From the NCBI RefSeq assembly GCF_018688335.1, contig NZ_CP061316.1, positions 1,426,001 through 1,490,000 of the forward strand: a DNA stretch of 64,000 bases, read 5' to 3'. The position numbers and the translations under genes were made by a program. The notes below the pieces were generated by a model that was given only the letters and a program-made list of their open reading frames with translations, ran no database searches and had not been told where the DNA came from. This document shows positions 23,081 through 28,441 of this stretch, one piece after another. This DNA comes from Polynucleobacter sp. AP-Jannik-300A-C4. Lineage in GTDB: Bacteria; Pseudomonadota; Gammaproteobacteria; Burkholderiales; Burkholderiaceae. How positions within the stretch are numbered: position 1 is the stretch's first letter; every line of letters begins with the position of its first letter.

Positions 23081-23113
23081 TAAAAAATCCACTCACACGA
23101 AGTGCAAGTGGAT
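23081..23113 (-). terminator. Strong hairpin after the CHAT operon and directly before comEA
   Basis: On the minus strand ATCCACTTGCAC pairs with GTGTGAGTGGAT around a TTC loop, giving a stem of about 12 pairs (two G-U), followed by TTTTTTA. It is a textbook intrinsic terminator for the four-gene operon ending at 23214. It ends only 12 nt before the comEA ribosome-binding site, leaving no room for a promoter in between, so comEA must be reached by read-through or the hairpin acts as an attenuator. Confidence 0.8.
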
Positions 23114-23213
23114 CAGTTACAACGAATGGATCTAAAAAAGGTTTACTATTTTCTGTGAATGACGTGAGAATCGGAAATCAATTACGGATCACTAAGAAGA
23201 TGCTTATTCAGGC

Positions 23214-23957
23214 TTAGTGGCTCAGGATAAATTGGGCTGCACGCTTGATAAGCTCATCCTCAGTTTGATTAAAGCCATGATAAGCAAAAGATTCACAGAC
23301 GTTACCTTCACTCACACCACCTTCCATAATCTCAAGGCGAGAAACTAAACCTGCTCGCCTACCCTCAATTAAATTTCTAGATGCTGAAATTGGCGTACCA
23401 CGACAAGCATCATCTTGATGGTGTATTGCGAGTACCGGCAGATTAACTTCCTCATTTATTGTTGCAGTTCTAACCGTACCCGCAACAATAATCCCGGATA
23501 GGAGGTTTGCAATCTGAGGGGATTTGTTTACAAAATTACTAGCCGTTGATGTTCCCATGCTGTGGCCAAAAATCCAAATGGGCAACCTAGTTCTAGACCG
23601 ATAAAAAGCAATAGTCTCTGCCACCCGCTGAAGGTGATCTTCTCGATCCCTCTTATCCCCACGTTTCAGATCTCCTAAATCATAAGGAGTGTCTACTAAA
23701 ACGGCATCAATTTGATATTGGGCCCACTGGTCTACAGATCTAACAAAAGTATGCCTGCTCCGGATTTGACCATCCTCCCGGATATGCAATTGGCCACCAC
23801 CCCCAGGATAAAGCAGCACCAATGCTTTAGGTTGATGAGCCTGAATGAAGAGCGTACGCGTAGGCTTTTCATCAGAATGGGGTATATCTAGAACTTGAGA
23901 AAATACCCCATTAGAAATCAGGCATAAGAAAAGCCAAGCAGATAGTCTAATTACCAA
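23214..23957 (-). CDS. Exported alpha/beta hydrolase, last gene of the CHAT operon
   Basis: The protein has the alpha/beta hydrolase triad: Ser in IFGHSMGTSTAS, Asp in AIHHQDDACRG and His in AYHGFNQTE, with an oxyanion-type GGGG stretch after VLLYPGG. I propose the TTG at 23957, preceded by AAGGGA, because the product then begins MVIRLSAWLFLCLISNGVFSQ, a good signal peptide; the frame is open to an ATG-like start at 24023, which would lie deep inside the upstream gene. From 23957 it has 247 residues and overlaps the previous gene by 11 nt, implying coupled translation. Substrate unknown; esterase or peptidase-like activity is possible. Confidence 0.75.
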   Translation of the reverse strand: MVIRLSAWLFLCLISNGVFSQVLDIPHSDEKPTRTLFIQAHQPKALVLLYPGGGGQLHIREDGQIRSRHTFVRSVDQWAQYQIDAVLVDTPYDLGDLKRGDKRDREDHLQRVAETIAFYRSRTRLPIWIFGHSMGTSTASNFVNKSPQIANLLSGIIVAGTVRTATINEEVNLPVLAIHHQDDACRGTPISASRNLIEGRRAGLVSRLEIMEGGVSEGNVCESFAYHGFNQTEDELIKRAAQFILSH

Positions 23958-24738
23958 TGATTCCCTTAAGACCAGTGTAAATCGAAACTGCAGTAGTGCC
24001 GAGTGCAACAATAGTTCCACCATACTCCTGCAATTTCTTCATCATTCCATGTAGGCTAGTCGGAGAAATTCGACCTTCACCCAAACCACTGACAACTGCC
24101 TTCAGGAAAGGATTAATCAATGCAGTCCTGAGATGACGCTGCTTGCTGGCATAGGCAACACCACCAAGCAACATGCCTGTCAAAAAGCTAAAGGCAATAC
24201 TAGCGGCATACTCCAAGACCTCACGCCACTCAAAAGCATTCTGTGGCCATATTGGCGAATGATCGACCAGGCCGGTCATCCAACTCATTCCAATTACAGA
24301 AGCTATTGCCAAAAATACGACCCCCATAAACCATTGGAATAAGCTTCTTGGCGCACTCTTAAATAGGAAGTAACCAAAGGGTAATGGCAACACCATAGAA
24401 ATCAAGCGCAGATACAACGGCTTCGTATCATAAATAATCGTAATTAATCCATGCGCAGCCAATAAAAGCAGAAGAGGAATACCGATATATAAAATCACAT
24501 CCAAAAACGATAGCAATAAACCTCTCGGCTCAGCTTGTTTTTGAGCCTGCTCATCAAGCAATAATTGAAGCTCAGCAATTCGATGTTCGTATGCTTCTTG
24601 ATTGGGGATTTCTTCAAGGCGTCTTTCAAGCTCGGCCACTTTTGCCATCATTGGCTTAAATAGATATAAATCGCGAGTGCAAACCTTACAGACTGCAGCC
24701 TCCTCAGCAACCTCAGAAAGACAGTAAGGACAATTCAT
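23947..24738 (-). CDS. Zinc-ribbon, coiled-coil membrane protein of the CHAT operon
   Basis: A 263-residue protein with no family name I can assign. Residues 1-20 form a zinc ribbon with Cys3-x2-Cys6 and Cys17-x2-Cys20. Residues about 30-70 look like a coiled coil (heptad Leu pattern in AELERRLEEIPNQ and AELQLLLDEQAQ). Then come at least four hydrophobic helices (about 78-105, 112-130, 138-160 and 178-205) and a last hydrophobic segment near the C-terminus. It starts at the stop of the Ig-like gene (1-nt overlap) and its end overlaps the hydrolase start. A membrane anchor that senses or tethers something in the cytosol is a guess. Confidence 0.7.
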   Translation of the reverse strand: MNCPYCLSEVAEEAAVCKVCTRDLYLFKPMMAKVAELERRLEEIPNQEAYEHRIAELQLLLDEQAQKQAEPRGLLLSFLDVILYIGIPLLLLLAAHGLITIIYDTKPLYLRLISMVLPLPFGYFLFKSAPRSLFQWFMGVVFLAIASVIGMSWMTGLVDHSPIWPQNAFEWREVLEYAASIAFSFLTGMLLGGVAYASKQRHLRTALINPFLKAVVSGLGEGRISPTSLHGMMKKLQEYGGTIVALGTTAVSIYTGLKGIIGN

Positions 24739-25178
24739 TACTTACTTACCACTAAGGTAAACACTGAATTTGTCTCACGACCGTCGACATCTTTGACGCT
24801 TACGCGAATAGTGTGACTACCTGGCGGCACATCCGCTTTTGCGAAGTCAATACCAGATGCGCTAATGGCATTTTTTAATCTTGGTGTTAAATCCACGAAA
24901 GGTGACTTCATATAAACCACTTTTATAGAAGCAGGGTCAATCTTTCCCTCGCCACGCGCCTCAAAGTTCACCTTAAAATCAATTGGCGAGTTCACTGGAG
25001 TATCCGCTTCCGGAGAAACCAACTTCACAGAGGGGCCACGAGAAATACCTCTTGTAGCTAAAGTGCCGGACGCCGCAGGTAAGGCGGCCTCCTTGGCGCT
25101 GATGAGCGGAGCCGCACTTGCCAATCCGGCAAAAAATATAAAAGCCGAAGTGCATAAGATTTGAATAAGTTTCATCAT
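24738..25178 (-). CDS. Secreted Ig-like domain protein of the CHAT operon
   Basis: A 146-residue protein with a signal peptide (LIQILCTSAFIFFAGLASA, cleavage near ASA|AP, about residue 22). The mature part looks like one immunoglobulin-like beta-sandwich: VKLVSPEADTPVNSPIDFKV, GKIDPASIKVVYMKSP, and the closing PPGSHTIRVSVKDVDGRETN, typical of bacterial Ig-like or cadherin-like folds. It has no obvious catalytic residues. It is 41 nt downstream of the CHAT gene and overlaps the zinc-ribbon gene by one base. A binding or scaffold role outside the membrane is inferred. Confidence 0.7.
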   Translation of the reverse strand: MMKLIQILCTSAFIFFAGLASAAPLISAKEAALPAASGTLATRGISRGPSVKLVSPEADTPVNSPIDFKVNFEARGEGKIDPASIKVVYMKSPFVDLTPRLKNAISASGIDFAKADVPPGSHTIRVSVKDVDGRETNSVFTLVVSK

Positions 25179-25219
25179 GATTCCAAAAAAAGAAAAATCT
25201 GTAGTAGTGAGATCTTAAA

Positions 25220-28200
25220 TCAATCGCCCACAACTACAAATGGTGCCCAAAAAAGAGGGTGCGCATAGGAGTACTTCATAGTACCGCCCTCCTTCATACC
25301 CCCTTGATCCACTTGATTGAGCATTGACTGTCGTAAAGCCTCCGACTTGGTAATACCCTGGGTTTGTTGCTGACGCTTAAAAAGATCCGTCATTAGCTGC
25401 CGAGATGCAACAGAATCTACTGGCCAATTAGACACGAGTAGAGCTTTTGCACCCGCAAAGAAAAAGGCTCTACCCAAGCCTGAAACTGCCTCAGATCCTG
25501 ACCCCTCTCCTGCAGCTGTATTACAGGCAGAGAGAACCACCCAGTCGGCATCCAACTTTAAGGCAATTACCTTATCCATTGTCAGCAAGCCATCATCTTT
25601 ATCTCCCGTAACATCCGGGGATGACAAAGCAAGCGCAGGTTGCGTCAAGCCATTGAGCTCGCCTGGGACCAAACCGTGGGTCGAAAACATGACAACCTTA
25701 CGATCCGATAAATCCATTGACGTGACCTGTTTTACGCTAGCCTGTTTATGCAAGAAAATATCACCAGGTTCAGCGCCCACTACCTTGCCTATCTCCTCGA
25801 TCTCTAAACTGGTATCTGGCAAACGCGGTAACAACGCTAACTCAGCTGAGCTAACTCCAGCCGTTTTAGGTGCGCTTCGAAGCTTCAGTGGAATACCCCG
25901 AGTAGCCAGTTGAGTTGACTTCATTTGCTTTTGGGCACTCTTCTCTTGTTCGCTACTAAAGTAAGGGTCTCCAAAACCAACAAAGCTCTTACGATTCGGA
26001 TTTCCATCAGGCAGACTACGAAGCGCAGTCAATGCAGTTACAGAAGGAATTTGAGCGATCGCAATCTCTTTTGTAAGCCAAGGTATTGACTTGTAACCAG
26101 AAAAAGCAATTGCACCCCCCTTTGAAGGCTGAACAGATGCTTGAGTAACTAACAATGAGAGTGGTAGCTGTCCAAGCTCTGCATGAGGAACTACCAACAT
26201 TACCTTTTTACCCTTAAAGCTAGCTTCCACCGGCGCTAATAGCTCTTGATATAGCTTGTGTGCGAGCATGACATCAAATGGCGGGATTTCATCAATAGTT
26301 GACACTCCGGGATCAAGTGCCTTACGTAATTGTGCGACCTGCTTTGCCATTTGCTGACGGCCAATAGCCAACTGAGAAAATTGAGGTGGGCCTTGCTTAC
26401 TGATGGCCCAAACATATCCCACATTCTCAGCAAAATACCAAGAAACCAGAACTTCATCCGGCCTCAGCAAACGTTGCGTCCGCTCAACTGAAGCTGGCTT
26501 AGGCTCAACAAGCTCAGCATATTCCGGAAATTTTTTTTCAATCTCCTTCTTCAAAGCCTCACGCTGAGATTTGAATGAGATGATATCGGCGCGAACCCTT
26601 TCCTGAACAGAGGGTAGCTGTTGATCTGGCGATGCAGAGCGTAAGCCTGTGAGCAATTCAGATAAGGTATTAATTCTTCTTTGCAAATCCTGCTCTTGTC
26701 TCGCAAGGTTTGCCAATTGTGGATCTTTAATGCTTGCTCGAGCCGCACTTGCTGTTAGGGCTCTTTGAACGCCGCTTCCTCTTGCAATGTCGGCAATCTG
26801 AAAAGCTTGTGCTGCAGCTGAAACTGCCTGAGCTGGATCTGTCTTCGCAGTATGTGCCAAGGCTGCTAGATAATTCTCCAAAAGGAAAGTCATGCGCTGT
26901 TGTTGCTTTACGCTAGTTGTATCATTTTCTGCATCATTACGTGCTTGATCTATCAAAATAGGTATAGAGGCTTTATAAGCAATGTCAGCCTCTGACCACT
27001 TACCCTCAGACTGAAGGCTTACGGCCTCAAATGCGCGCACCATTGCAATGCGTGGCGAGTTTTTATCGGAGGAAGATTCAAGTCGCTTAAGCATTCCATC
27101 AACCATCTCAAAGGCTTGTTGAGACTTACCAGTTTTGAGCATTGCCAAAACCCAATCCAGGTCACCAAATTGATAGCTTTTTGCCATTTCAGGATCAGTC
27201 TTAATTGCGGAGGCCATCTCTTCAAACACTTGATTAGCCTCAGCATATTTACCATCCGCTACAAGTGCCGTACCAAGCGATCTTTGTGCTGAGGCGAGGG
27301 TAGTATTTGCGCCCGTTGCACCCGCGGCCTTGACGGTACTCAATGCAGCTCTCGACAAAAGCACTGCCTCAGCATACCTTCCCTGCTCATTCACTATGAC
27401 AGCAAGACTTCTGAGACCCCGTGCAACCTCAATTGAGTTAGAGCCAAAACTTGAGAGAGAAAGCGTGATTGATTTTCGAGCGTAGAACTCAGCATCAATT
27501 AATTTTCGCTGCCTGAGTAAAACGTTAGCTAAGTTTAATTCTCGATTGGAAATTTGGGTGACATAAACTCGGGGGTTATTGGAAGCATCCGTAGCTGTCC
27601 TAACGTCACTCCCAACAACATCAACTTTTGATGAACTATTTTTAACTTTTTCGTACTGTATCTCCAGTAAATGCAGTGTTTTTCTAAGAGAGCGTTCGCT
27701 CTCTAGCCATTGACCCTGACCGGAAAAATAAATTCCGCGAGCACTTTCATATGCACCCTCCCAGTTAGATCCGAACTCCATATAAGCCCGTGATCTCTTC
27801 AGGGTGCTTAATGTTCCATCCATCGCATCTAATGTTTTTTTTGCTGCTTCAAAGTTACCTGAATTGACATAGTAGGTGAGCAACAGTCTGCCCATGGTCA
27901 TTTGAAAACCGGTCAAATTGGGTAAAGCTGATGCTTGATAGGCTTGAGCCTTTTGAATAATAGCAATTGCTTTTGACTGCTTACCAACTGAATTTTCGAG
28001 TACGCTCAGAGTAATTAAGTCATTCAAATGCAAGCGAGGAGTAGTTGAAGGGTATTGATTTACTGCAATTTCTAAATTTTTCAATGCCTCACCAGTGTTT
28101 CCGAGGTCTTCGTATGCGGCCGAACGTCTAGTGTAAAAATGGTTTAGAACTTCATTATCCTGCGATGTCGGCAACTGCTCTGCAACCACTTTTTTAGCAC

Positions 28201-28393
28201 GCTCTACGATGGCGAGATCAGGTTTAGTTTGCTCAACTAATCTTAGAATATCTTTTATATCCCTCGGAGGCGCTTTAATTGTCTGCACATCAACATCCAC
28301 CTCATCCTTGCCTGGCACTGCAAATGCAATGGTTGAGACCAATTGAATACCGCAAAACAGAATGAGTGCCAAGAATAAAGGGGGCTTACGCAT
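25220..28393 (-). CDS. Exported TPR-repeat CHAT domain protein (caspase-like peptidase fold)
   Basis: A 1057-residue protein. Residues 1-26 are a signal peptide (hydrophobic core, then STIAFAV), so the protein is likely periplasmic. Residues about 85-500 hold TPR-like helical repeats, for example AVLLSRAALSTVKAAG and AEANQVFEEMA. A coiled region (about 560-640) leads into a C-terminal CHAT domain (about 690-1055). The catalytic dyad of CHAT peptidases is intact: His906 in MFSTHGLVPGE and Cys957 in VVLSACNTAAGEG, followed by GLGRAFFFAGAKALLVSNW. CHAT proteins include separase-like proteases and defence effectors; an exported one with three tightly linked partner genes is unusual. Its function is unknown. 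Confidence 0.85.
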   Translation of the reverse strand: MRKPPLFLALILFCGIQLVSTIAFAVPGKDEVDVDVQTIKAPPRDIKDILRLVEQTKPDLAIVERAKKVVAEQLPTSQDNEVLNHFYTRRSAAYEDLGNTGEALKNLEIAVNQYPSTTPRLHLNDLITLSVLENSVGKQSKAIAIIQKAQAYQASALPNLTGFQMTMGRLLLTYYVNSGNFEAAKKTLDAMDGTLSTLKRSRAYMEFGSNWEGAYESARGIYFSGQGQWLESERSLRKTLHLLEIQYEKVKNSSSKVDVVGSDVRTATDASNNPRVYVTQISNRELNLANVLLRQRKLIDAEFYARKSITLSLSSFGSNSIEVARGLRSLAVIVNEQGRYAEAVLLSRAALSTVKAAGATGANTTLASAQRSLGTALVADGKYAEANQVFEEMASAIKTDPEMAKSYQFGDLDWVLAMLKTGKSQQAFEMVDGMLKRLESSSDKNSPRIAMVRAFEAVSLQSEGKWSEADIAYKASIPILIDQARNDAENDTTSVKQQQRMTFLLENYLAALAHTAKTDPAQAVSAAAQAFQIADIARGSGVQRALTASAARASIKDPQLANLARQEQDLQRRINTLSELLTGLRSASPDQQLPSVQERVRADIISFKSQREALKKEIEKKFPEYAELVEPKPASVERTQRLLRPDEVLVSWYFAENVGYVWAISKQGPPQFSQLAIGRQQMAKQVAQLRKALDPGVSTIDEIPPFDVMLAHKLYQELLAPVEASFKGKKVMLVVPHAELGQLPLSLLVTQASVQPSKGGAIAFSGYKSIPWLTKEIAIAQIPSVTALTALRSLPDGNPNRKSFVGFGDPYFSSEQEKSAQKQMKSTQLATRGIPLKLRSAPKTAGVSSAELALLPRLPDTSLEIEEIGKVVGAEPGDIFLHKQASVKQVTSMDLSDRKVVMFSTHGLVPGELNGLTQPALALSSPDVTGDKDDGLLTMDKVIALKLDADWVVLSACNTAAGEGSGSEAVSGLGRAFFFAGAKALLVSNWPVDSVASRQLMTDLFKRQQQTQGITKSEALRQSMLNQVDQGGMKEGGTMKYSYAHPLFWAPFVVVGD

Positions 28394-28411
28394 CGAAAAA
28401 TGTCCTAATAT

Positions 28412-28441
28412 TTATAAGGAATATGGTAGCTTAGATGGCAA
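28412..28441 (-). promoter_or_regulatory. Possible sigma-70 promoter of the CHAT operon
   Basis: On the minus strand a TTGCCA box (28436-28441) is followed after 18 nt by TTATAA (28412-28417), placing the start point about a dozen bases before the CHAT ATG. An AGGA ribosome-binding site lies nine bases before the ATG. This is pattern matching only. Confidence 0.4.

Follow-up and report, generated by a model that had tools for sequence, protein, structure and literature searches.

A cassette of a TPR-CHAT protease, an Ig-like protein and a zinc-ribbon membrane protein in Polynucleobacter: a candidate periplasmic proteolytic relay

Gene content and order of the locus

The window analyzed here, 64,000 nt of the genome of the freshwater bacterium Polynucleobacter sp. 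AP-Jannik-300A-C4 (NZ_CP061316.1, 1,426,001-1,490,000; GCF_018688335.1), carries at 23214-28393 four co-oriented minus-strand open reading frames, for a TPR-CHAT protease, an Ig-like protein (IGL), a zinc-ribbon membrane protein (ZNR) and an alpha/beta-hydrolase. A first-pass annotation of the bare sequence had described them as one bounded unit of four genes. The genes are present at the places claimed, and a single bounded unit is upheld, its products being assigned by prediction to periplasm, membrane and cytosol; however, what is conserved is a unit of three genes, those of the TPR-CHAT protease and IGL, both with predicted export, and of ZNR, and not a fixed set of four. Orthologs of the hydrolase stand alone in genomes G074 (locus L077) and G105 (L084), and 14 of 30 intact loci lack the gene. 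Lone orthologs or unrelated neighbors, named by the annotation as speaking against a joint unit, were thus found for the hydrolase but mostly not for the CHAT-IGL-ZNR core, where the exceptions are a solitary CHAT (L070), IGL-ZNR pairs that have no CHAT next to them (L149, L150, L159) and trios that adjoin but are not co-oriented (L104, L128/L152, L127/L153). Within Polynucleobacter the trio is present in some genomes and missing from others, as a cassette that mostly lies between rfaD and comEA. Because CHAT and IGL bear the same short sequence, an enzyme that switches itself and a partner on by cutting is suggested. The gap of 41 nt between CHAT and IGL and one overlap of 1 nt were described correctly, while the claimed overlap of 11 nt exists if the hydrolase starts at TTG 23957; the ATG at 24023 in the list of open reading frames gives 77 nt instead.

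The CHAT gene (25220-28393, on the minus strand like all window features below) is the single CHAT match in the genome, which is one contig of 1,998,164 bases. Its product of 1057 aa has a predicted signal peptide (~1-26, judged by eye and from a helix at residues 6-17 of the model), a TPR solenoid (~47-540; 26774-28255), delimited by its helices in the model and set apart by identity, nonsynonymous divergence (dN) and recombination, and a separase-like CHAT protease domain (710-1057; 25223-26266). The latter matches PF12770 with E = 1.4e-48 and 166.3 bits against a curated cut-off of 24, and three TPR models exceed the Pfam cut-off N-terminal to it; beyond these parts and the signal-peptide-like N-terminal helix no other domain was found in the chain. 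The putative catalytic dyad of the CHAT family, His906 (in THG; 25676-25678) and Cys957 (in SACNT; 25523-25525), is invariant in alignment A5 (38 rows). The structural model (mean predicted local distance difference test, pLDDT, 79.7; predicted template modeling score 0.76) has the solenoid helices at 47-540, followed by a caspase-like domain. A fold search with it returned Csx29, separase and DdvA, along with many TPR proteins, in agreement with the annotated CHAT protein of predicted export and with a separase/Craspase fold; a sequence search of the PDB, even with a profile, gave only TPR and other helical proteins and no CHAT protease. The region around WPVD was inspected by eye for the separase residue that binds the arginine preceding the cut, but this reading was dropped because controls carry similar motifs.

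Pfam matches of the three smaller proteins (Ig-like, zinc-ribbon, alpha/beta-hydrolase) lie below cut-off. IGL (24738-25178; 146 aa) is modeled with a signal-peptide helix at 2-19, a coil at 20-49 (pLDDT ~69-77), corresponding to a conserved tail that reaches to ~49, and an Ig-like domain at 50-145 (pLDDT ~88-95); in the fold search this domain matched Ig-like domains, CopC and PKD among them, with modest scores (best E 4e-4). ZNR (23947-24738; 263 aa) has an N-terminal zinc ribbon (CPYC..CKVC) with a weak match to DZR_2, a coiled region and about four hydrophobic segments, its topology being predicted by eye; the ribbon cysteines C3, C6, C17 and C20 (24679-24732) are invariant in alignment A1 (11 rows). 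The optional hydrolase (23214-23957 with the TTG start) is predicted to be exported and has the nucleophile motif GHSMG. It was considered as a protease substrate because of a TR-T sequence after its signal peptide and rejected, since a stand-alone hydrolase carries TR-T too, so that the sequence is not specific.

An arginine site shared by CHAT and IGL

The sequence LATRG occurs in the window in a loop of the CHAT domain (residues 829-833; 25895-25909) and in the IGL tail before the Ig domain (residues 40-44; 25047-25061), where cleavage would take place after Arg832 and Arg43, respectively; Arg47 of IGL, in an RGP sequence, is an alternative candidate. The CHAT loop (823-852) is one of four segments of the model with pLDDT below 50 (the others being 910-917, 958-967 and 1035-1044), which is consistent with, but does not prove, a flexible cleavage loop. 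The site is present throughout the genus sets of 35 CHATs (34 with LATRG, one with FATRG) and 35 IGLs (34 with LATRG, one with LSTRG), and the IGL tail is also invariant at L25, E30, A31, P34 and RGP (alignment A6, 28 rows). Genome-wide, [LF]ATRG was found at 13 places, compared to 8 for a reversed control pattern; in frames of more than 100 codons it is confined to CHAT, IGL, one methyltransferase-like protein and one frame of 158 codons that looks non-coding by eye.

In a tree of 59 CHATs one clade (support 100/99) unites 19 of the 20 IGL-adjacent proteins with three from the genomes of L151 and L159 and with L189; 20 of its 23 members have TRG in the loop, as opposed to none of the 36 others (35 controls and a CHAT of Variovorax). 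The tree leaves out 28 of the 35 genus CHATs, near copies and fragments (among them L127, L129, L147, L152, L153, L156, L157, L160, L164 and L142), as well as L186, the gene of G409, a near copy of L128 without TRG. The Variovorax lineage, with KRG in CHAT and KRAG in IGL, is an independent line for the site. A further independent line comes from loci in which an IGL-ZNR pair adjoins exported C14 proteases (L130-L135), with an OmpA-family gene in all but L132, where the contig ends early. In L130 and L131 the protease linker after DACHS, the OmpA tail and the IGL tail all have TRG; in L133 and L134 the linker has SRG plus TRG or TRA, and both tails TRG; in L135 the three are TRS, TRS and TRA. 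Together with L138, these loci probably represent a sister system composed of exported C14 caspases (some with DUF4384), IGL homologs and an OmpA-family protein whose signal peptide is followed by TRG or TRS.

Distribution of the cassette

A CHAT relative with E <= 1e-10 is found in 54 of 186 Polynucleobacter genomes, some of these being other CHAT kinds or fragments. Forty regions, not covering every CHAT place, were taken; L076, which is another piece of the L040 locus, and L077, which has just the hydrolase, were not counted. Among the remaining 38 and the window, the order CHAT-IGL-ZNR is seen in 30, including L040 with two CHATs and a split ZNR; three have the order IGL-ZNR-other genes-CHAT (L053-L055), three are decayed (L071-L073), two lie at contig ends (L074, L075) and one is a CHAT alone (L070). 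The location between rfaD and comEA is held by 26 of the 30 intact loci, the other four being L052, L056, L068 and L069, and the hydrolase is present in 16 of the 30. The comEA site was inspected by blast in 23 genomes, of which 16 gave no CHAT match and 7 have the cassette at another place; in 22 of them rfaD is next to comEA with no cassette gene between, and in the remaining one, G105, a lone hydrolase (L084, 682-1398) occupies the otherwise empty site and is perhaps a remnant of a lost cassette. The second lone hydrolase is at L077, 8451-9191, in G074.

Other arrangements also occur within the genus. The insertions which separate ZNR from CHAT in L053 (5590-7094), L054 (10819-11634) and L055 (6912-8416) encode a different exported alpha/beta-hydrolase (271-272 aa) and, in two of the three, an exported-looking protein of 214 aa without a Pfam match. 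Tandem CHATs precede one IGL-ZNR pair in L040 (7206-13551), where they differ in N-half type, and, beyond the genus, in L155 (1511-7955). In L071, L072 and L073 CHAT is fragmented; L073 also lacks an IGL match, has cysM in pieces and matches comEA partially. The cassette of L069 (11254-16483) is near genes which by eye resemble those of an AAA-type ATPase and a tyrosine recombinase. Another CHAT kind of the genus (L141-L143), which is not IGL-linked, is followed in all three loci by genes for proteins of ~244, 650 and 580 aa.

The trio recurs in other beta- and alphaproteobacteria. An IGL profile had matches in 15 of 399 genomes sampled from the order and in 3 of 369 sampled from the class (the genome under study counted in both); by the latter figure the IGL family is rare beyond the order, within this sampling. 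Named genomes, when scanned, yielded 19 loci. The order CHAT-IGL-ZNR is found in Azospira (L148, L160), Candidatus Nitricoxidireducens (L147) and betaproteobacterial metagenome-assembled genomes (L154-L156, L158), and Bradyrhizobium (L163-L165) has CHAT-IGL and two zinc-ribbon genes, the extra one being a frame of 65-74 aa in the interval from IGL to ZNR (L163, 8421-8618; L164, 1245-1442; L165, 8359-8583). The trio adjoins with mixed strands in L127/L153 and L128/L152, and CHAT is near IGL in L129/L157. A Variovorax paradoxus plasmid carries the distant CHAT lineage, divergently placed, with IGL and ZNR, and a Bradyrhizobium japonicum plasmid a divergently placed CHAT with IGL; among plasmid records, ZNR was found in one and IGL in two, while phage records gave no ZNR match. 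L151 begins at a contig end with IGL-ZNR, and the genomes of L151 and L159 have clade CHATs on other contigs; since L217 stops inside the CHAT domain, it may adjoin L151 across an assembly gap. We define as IGL-linked protease systems those with an IGL-ZNR pair and an exported clan-CD protease; the window and other loci belong here, with L149 and L150 as exceptions. A second mark of such systems, TR-G in both the CHAT loop and the IGL tail, is likewise present in the window.

Exchange of the TPR half

In the more distant alleles, identity to the window's CHAT is 20-50% across windows of the TPR half as opposed to 67-99% in the last third. Pairs with similar neighbors (L039/L062, L038/L057, L041/L060 and L047/L061) have a dN of 0.00-0.06 for rfaD, IGL, ZNR and cysM, compared to 0.66-0.68 for CHAT residues 28-270, where synonymous divergence is saturated. 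Five N-half types are present among the 35 CHATs (linkage at more than 55% identity); between the two big types N-half identity averages 0.43, with C-half identity up to 0.98. N-half identity correlates with that of ZNR at r = 0.21, ZNR with IGL at r = 0.77, the pairs being non-independent. L049 and L050 are mosaics with a change of partner near residue 600. These comparisons show that relatives have swapped the TPR sensor half while the protease half stayed conserved, the crossovers lying near residue 600; such exchange would suit a recognition part, as in recognition and defence systems, while not telling what is recognized.

Boundaries and surroundings of the unit

Directly before CHAT lies an AT-rich block with a putative ribosome-binding site (28394-28430); because most of 25 aligned loci have a similar block, a promoter directly before the CHAT start codon is plausible, as had been proposed. 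Its identification by consensus was rejected, promoter-like sites in the region being fewer than expected by chance (4 compared to 9.5). At the other end the hairpin described after the unit was found at 23086-23114, between the hydrolase gene and comEA, with 13 pairs and then a T-run, but the number of terminator-like sites in the region (5, with 5.9 expected) is not above chance. The upstream flank is presumed, from reading the sequences, to hold rfaD, rfaE, ugd and lapB, and the downstream flank comEA, cysM, mltB and an HDAC-like gene. Among the flank genes a domain search was made for comEA, which has HHH (Pfam).

A possible periplasmic relay and its alternatives

We consider it moderately probable that the trio is a periplasmic proteolytic relay composed of a self-activating arginine-specific CHAT protease, its substrate IGL, and ZNR, which would relay the signal at the membrane. 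The TPR solenoid would sense something periplasmic, upon which the CHAT domain, a cysteine protease of the separase/Craspase kind, would become active, cut itself in the loop after Arg832 (LATR|G) and also cut the identical sequence in the IGL tail after Arg43. The cut in IGL would remove a conserved pro-segment of ~20 residues following the signal peptide and free the Ig-like domain, which might act on ZNR; ZNR could then transmit the signal through the inner membrane to its zinc ribbon in the cytosol, with the optional hydrolase as an accessory envelope enzyme. Since relatives swap the sensor half and the cassette as a whole is present in some and missing in others, the cue is probably variable, such as a phage or the toxin of a rival. 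The annotated role in envelope surveillance or defence stays conjectural, with better reasons than before. More tentatively, the trio may belong to a class of widespread periplasmic caspase-like relays, in which unrelated CHAT and C14 proteases would act on a common exported Ig-like (and OmpA-like) substrate via one arginine site at which the protease would also activate itself, the exchangeable TPR half being an envelope immune receptor.

Several points weigh against this relay. By shuffling, one pair of such proteins would have a 6-mer in common with a chance of ~0.01, so the case for the site rests on the comparisons of conservation, and there the CHATs of the IGL-linked clade are mutually non-independent. 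The CHAT loops of G592 and G409 lack xRG (LTKREA) despite the presence of IGL, one of the two L155 CHATs has ASRG, Bradyrhizobium IGL has DRRG or ERRG where CHAT has TRG, and Variovorax has the KRG and KRAG given above; exact covariation of the residues before the cut was accordingly not upheld (Bradyrhizobium, G592). L189 (VRG) falls in the clade, yet its genome gave no IGL match, and a looser xRG is found in 14 of 36 control loops, L189 included. In L149 and L150 IGL-ZNR is present in genomes in which no clade CHAT was found, that of L149 having a distant CHAT and that of L150 none. In the C14 loci the linker of the second protease (C14a) lacks TR-G/S/A, and L135-L138 and L145 carry a divergent IGL kind without RGP. 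Cleavage of CHAT and IGL is deduced from their sequences, and the role of ZNR is a guess. Arginine specificity is not transferable from the family because Csx29 cuts Csx30 after Leu407 (accessible part of PMC9729208). Gene order, the common motif with its conservation, low model confidence at both sites, the fold and the exchange of alleles are observed, and the evidence for the site is good; export, cleavage, specificity, the sequence of events, ZNR as target, the cue and the output are inferred.

Two alternatives are the main rivals. In the first, for which the chances appear low but not negligible, the trio would be a relay for quality control or stress of the envelope, monitoring lipopolysaccharide or outer-membrane assembly without a link to phages or rivals; its usual place beside rfaD-rfaE-ugd-lapB, the predicted export of its parts and the OmpA partners of IGL systems agree with this, whereas the cassette is elsewhere in other genomes of the genus (L052-L056, L068, L069), rfaD and comEA mostly adjoin without it (22 of 23 genomes), and exchange of sensor-half alleles is unusual for housekeeping. 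The second, which we rate slightly lower, makes IGL an inhibitor whose LATRG tail would sit in the CHAT active site as a pseudosubstrate, in competition with the CHAT loop, until the cue removes IGL. The motif common to both proteins and the conservation of the IGL tail beyond it would suit such binding, and separase is held by securin in this manner (accessible part of PMC9729208); but the small residue (Gly or Ser) after Arg and a tail without fixed structure have the look of a cleavable site, and the OmpA tail of the caspase loci has the site as well, so IGL would not be the sole such protein. A defence against phages or toxins, in which the hydrolase would be the killing effector released or activated by CHAT, is improbable: a hydrolase does accompany about half of the intact loci (16 of 30), and a different one adjoins the trio in L053-L055 (L054 by hmmscan, the others by likeness), but it is missing from the other 14, stands alone in L077 and L084, and has TR-T even where the cassette is lacking. 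That the shared LATRG is a coincidence of merely co-inherited genes is very improbable, since despite the shuffling value and the deviating motifs (G592, G409, L155, Bradyrhizobium, Variovorax, L189) the motif is conserved across genera, absent from 36 other CHATs and recurrent in caspase loci.

Relation to known systems

The annotation knew of no named system of this composition, which holds: filing under a known defence system was rejected as PADLOC and PHROGs gave nothing usable, the system core proteins of PADLOC 2023 remained unmatched except for two weak matches, BovA (E 0.0011 over 60 residues) and LmuB (0.0028 over 69 residues), and no description of the gene set was found in titles and abstracts among the matches listed. 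The closest likeness is to Csx29 of Craspase (type III-E CRISPR), with which the window's CHAT has the TPR-CHAT fold in common. Csx29, however, is RNA-guided and complexed with gRAMP, while the window's CHAT has a predicted signal peptide and is predicted to cleave after arginine, not after a leucine such as Leu407 of Csx30; as to partners such as gRAMP/Cas7-11, Csx30 and Csx31, PADLOC gave no Cas match among the four proteins, the further neighbors being judged by eye. Separase with securin is eukaryotic, not exported and has other substrates and regulators.

DdvA is reportedly a transmembrane anti-sigma factor in which an anti-sigma domain, a transmembrane helix and TPR-CHAT form one chain, and its His-Cys dyad is said to be incomplete. 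In the window the protease, the Ig-like protein and the zinc-ribbon membrane protein are separate chains and the dyad is complete; the CHAT chain consists of a signal-peptide-like helix, TPR and CHAT. No ECF sigma-factor partner was recognized by eye among the neighbors, no search aimed at sigma factors having been made.

The bacterial C14 proteases (orthocaspases), beside which IGL homologs and ZNR occur in L130-L135, are of a different family from CHAT; in the accessible parts of PMC6426788 and PMC8283722 they cut after positively charged residues, and an association of orthocaspases with IGL was not found among the matches listed, as far as these texts were accessible. Defence of the gasdermin type, with a CHAT protease beside its substrate (accessible part of PMC9729208), resembles the CHAT-IGL neighborhood but differs in that the parts in the window are predicted to be exported. 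No gasdermin-like match was obtained among the four proteins (Pfam, PADLOC).

Caspase-like systems of bacteria are so far known mostly from the cytosol. The trio resembles other TPR-CHAT protease-substrate pairs but is unusual in its predicted compartment and in the swapping of its sensor, and if the relay is true, protease and putative substrate would both reside in the periplasm. The candidate cleavage site is named and directly testable, and the natural sensor swaps offer a route to the cue. The relay would then be an envelope counterpart to Craspase and would provide a partner-gene logic for exported C14 caspases.
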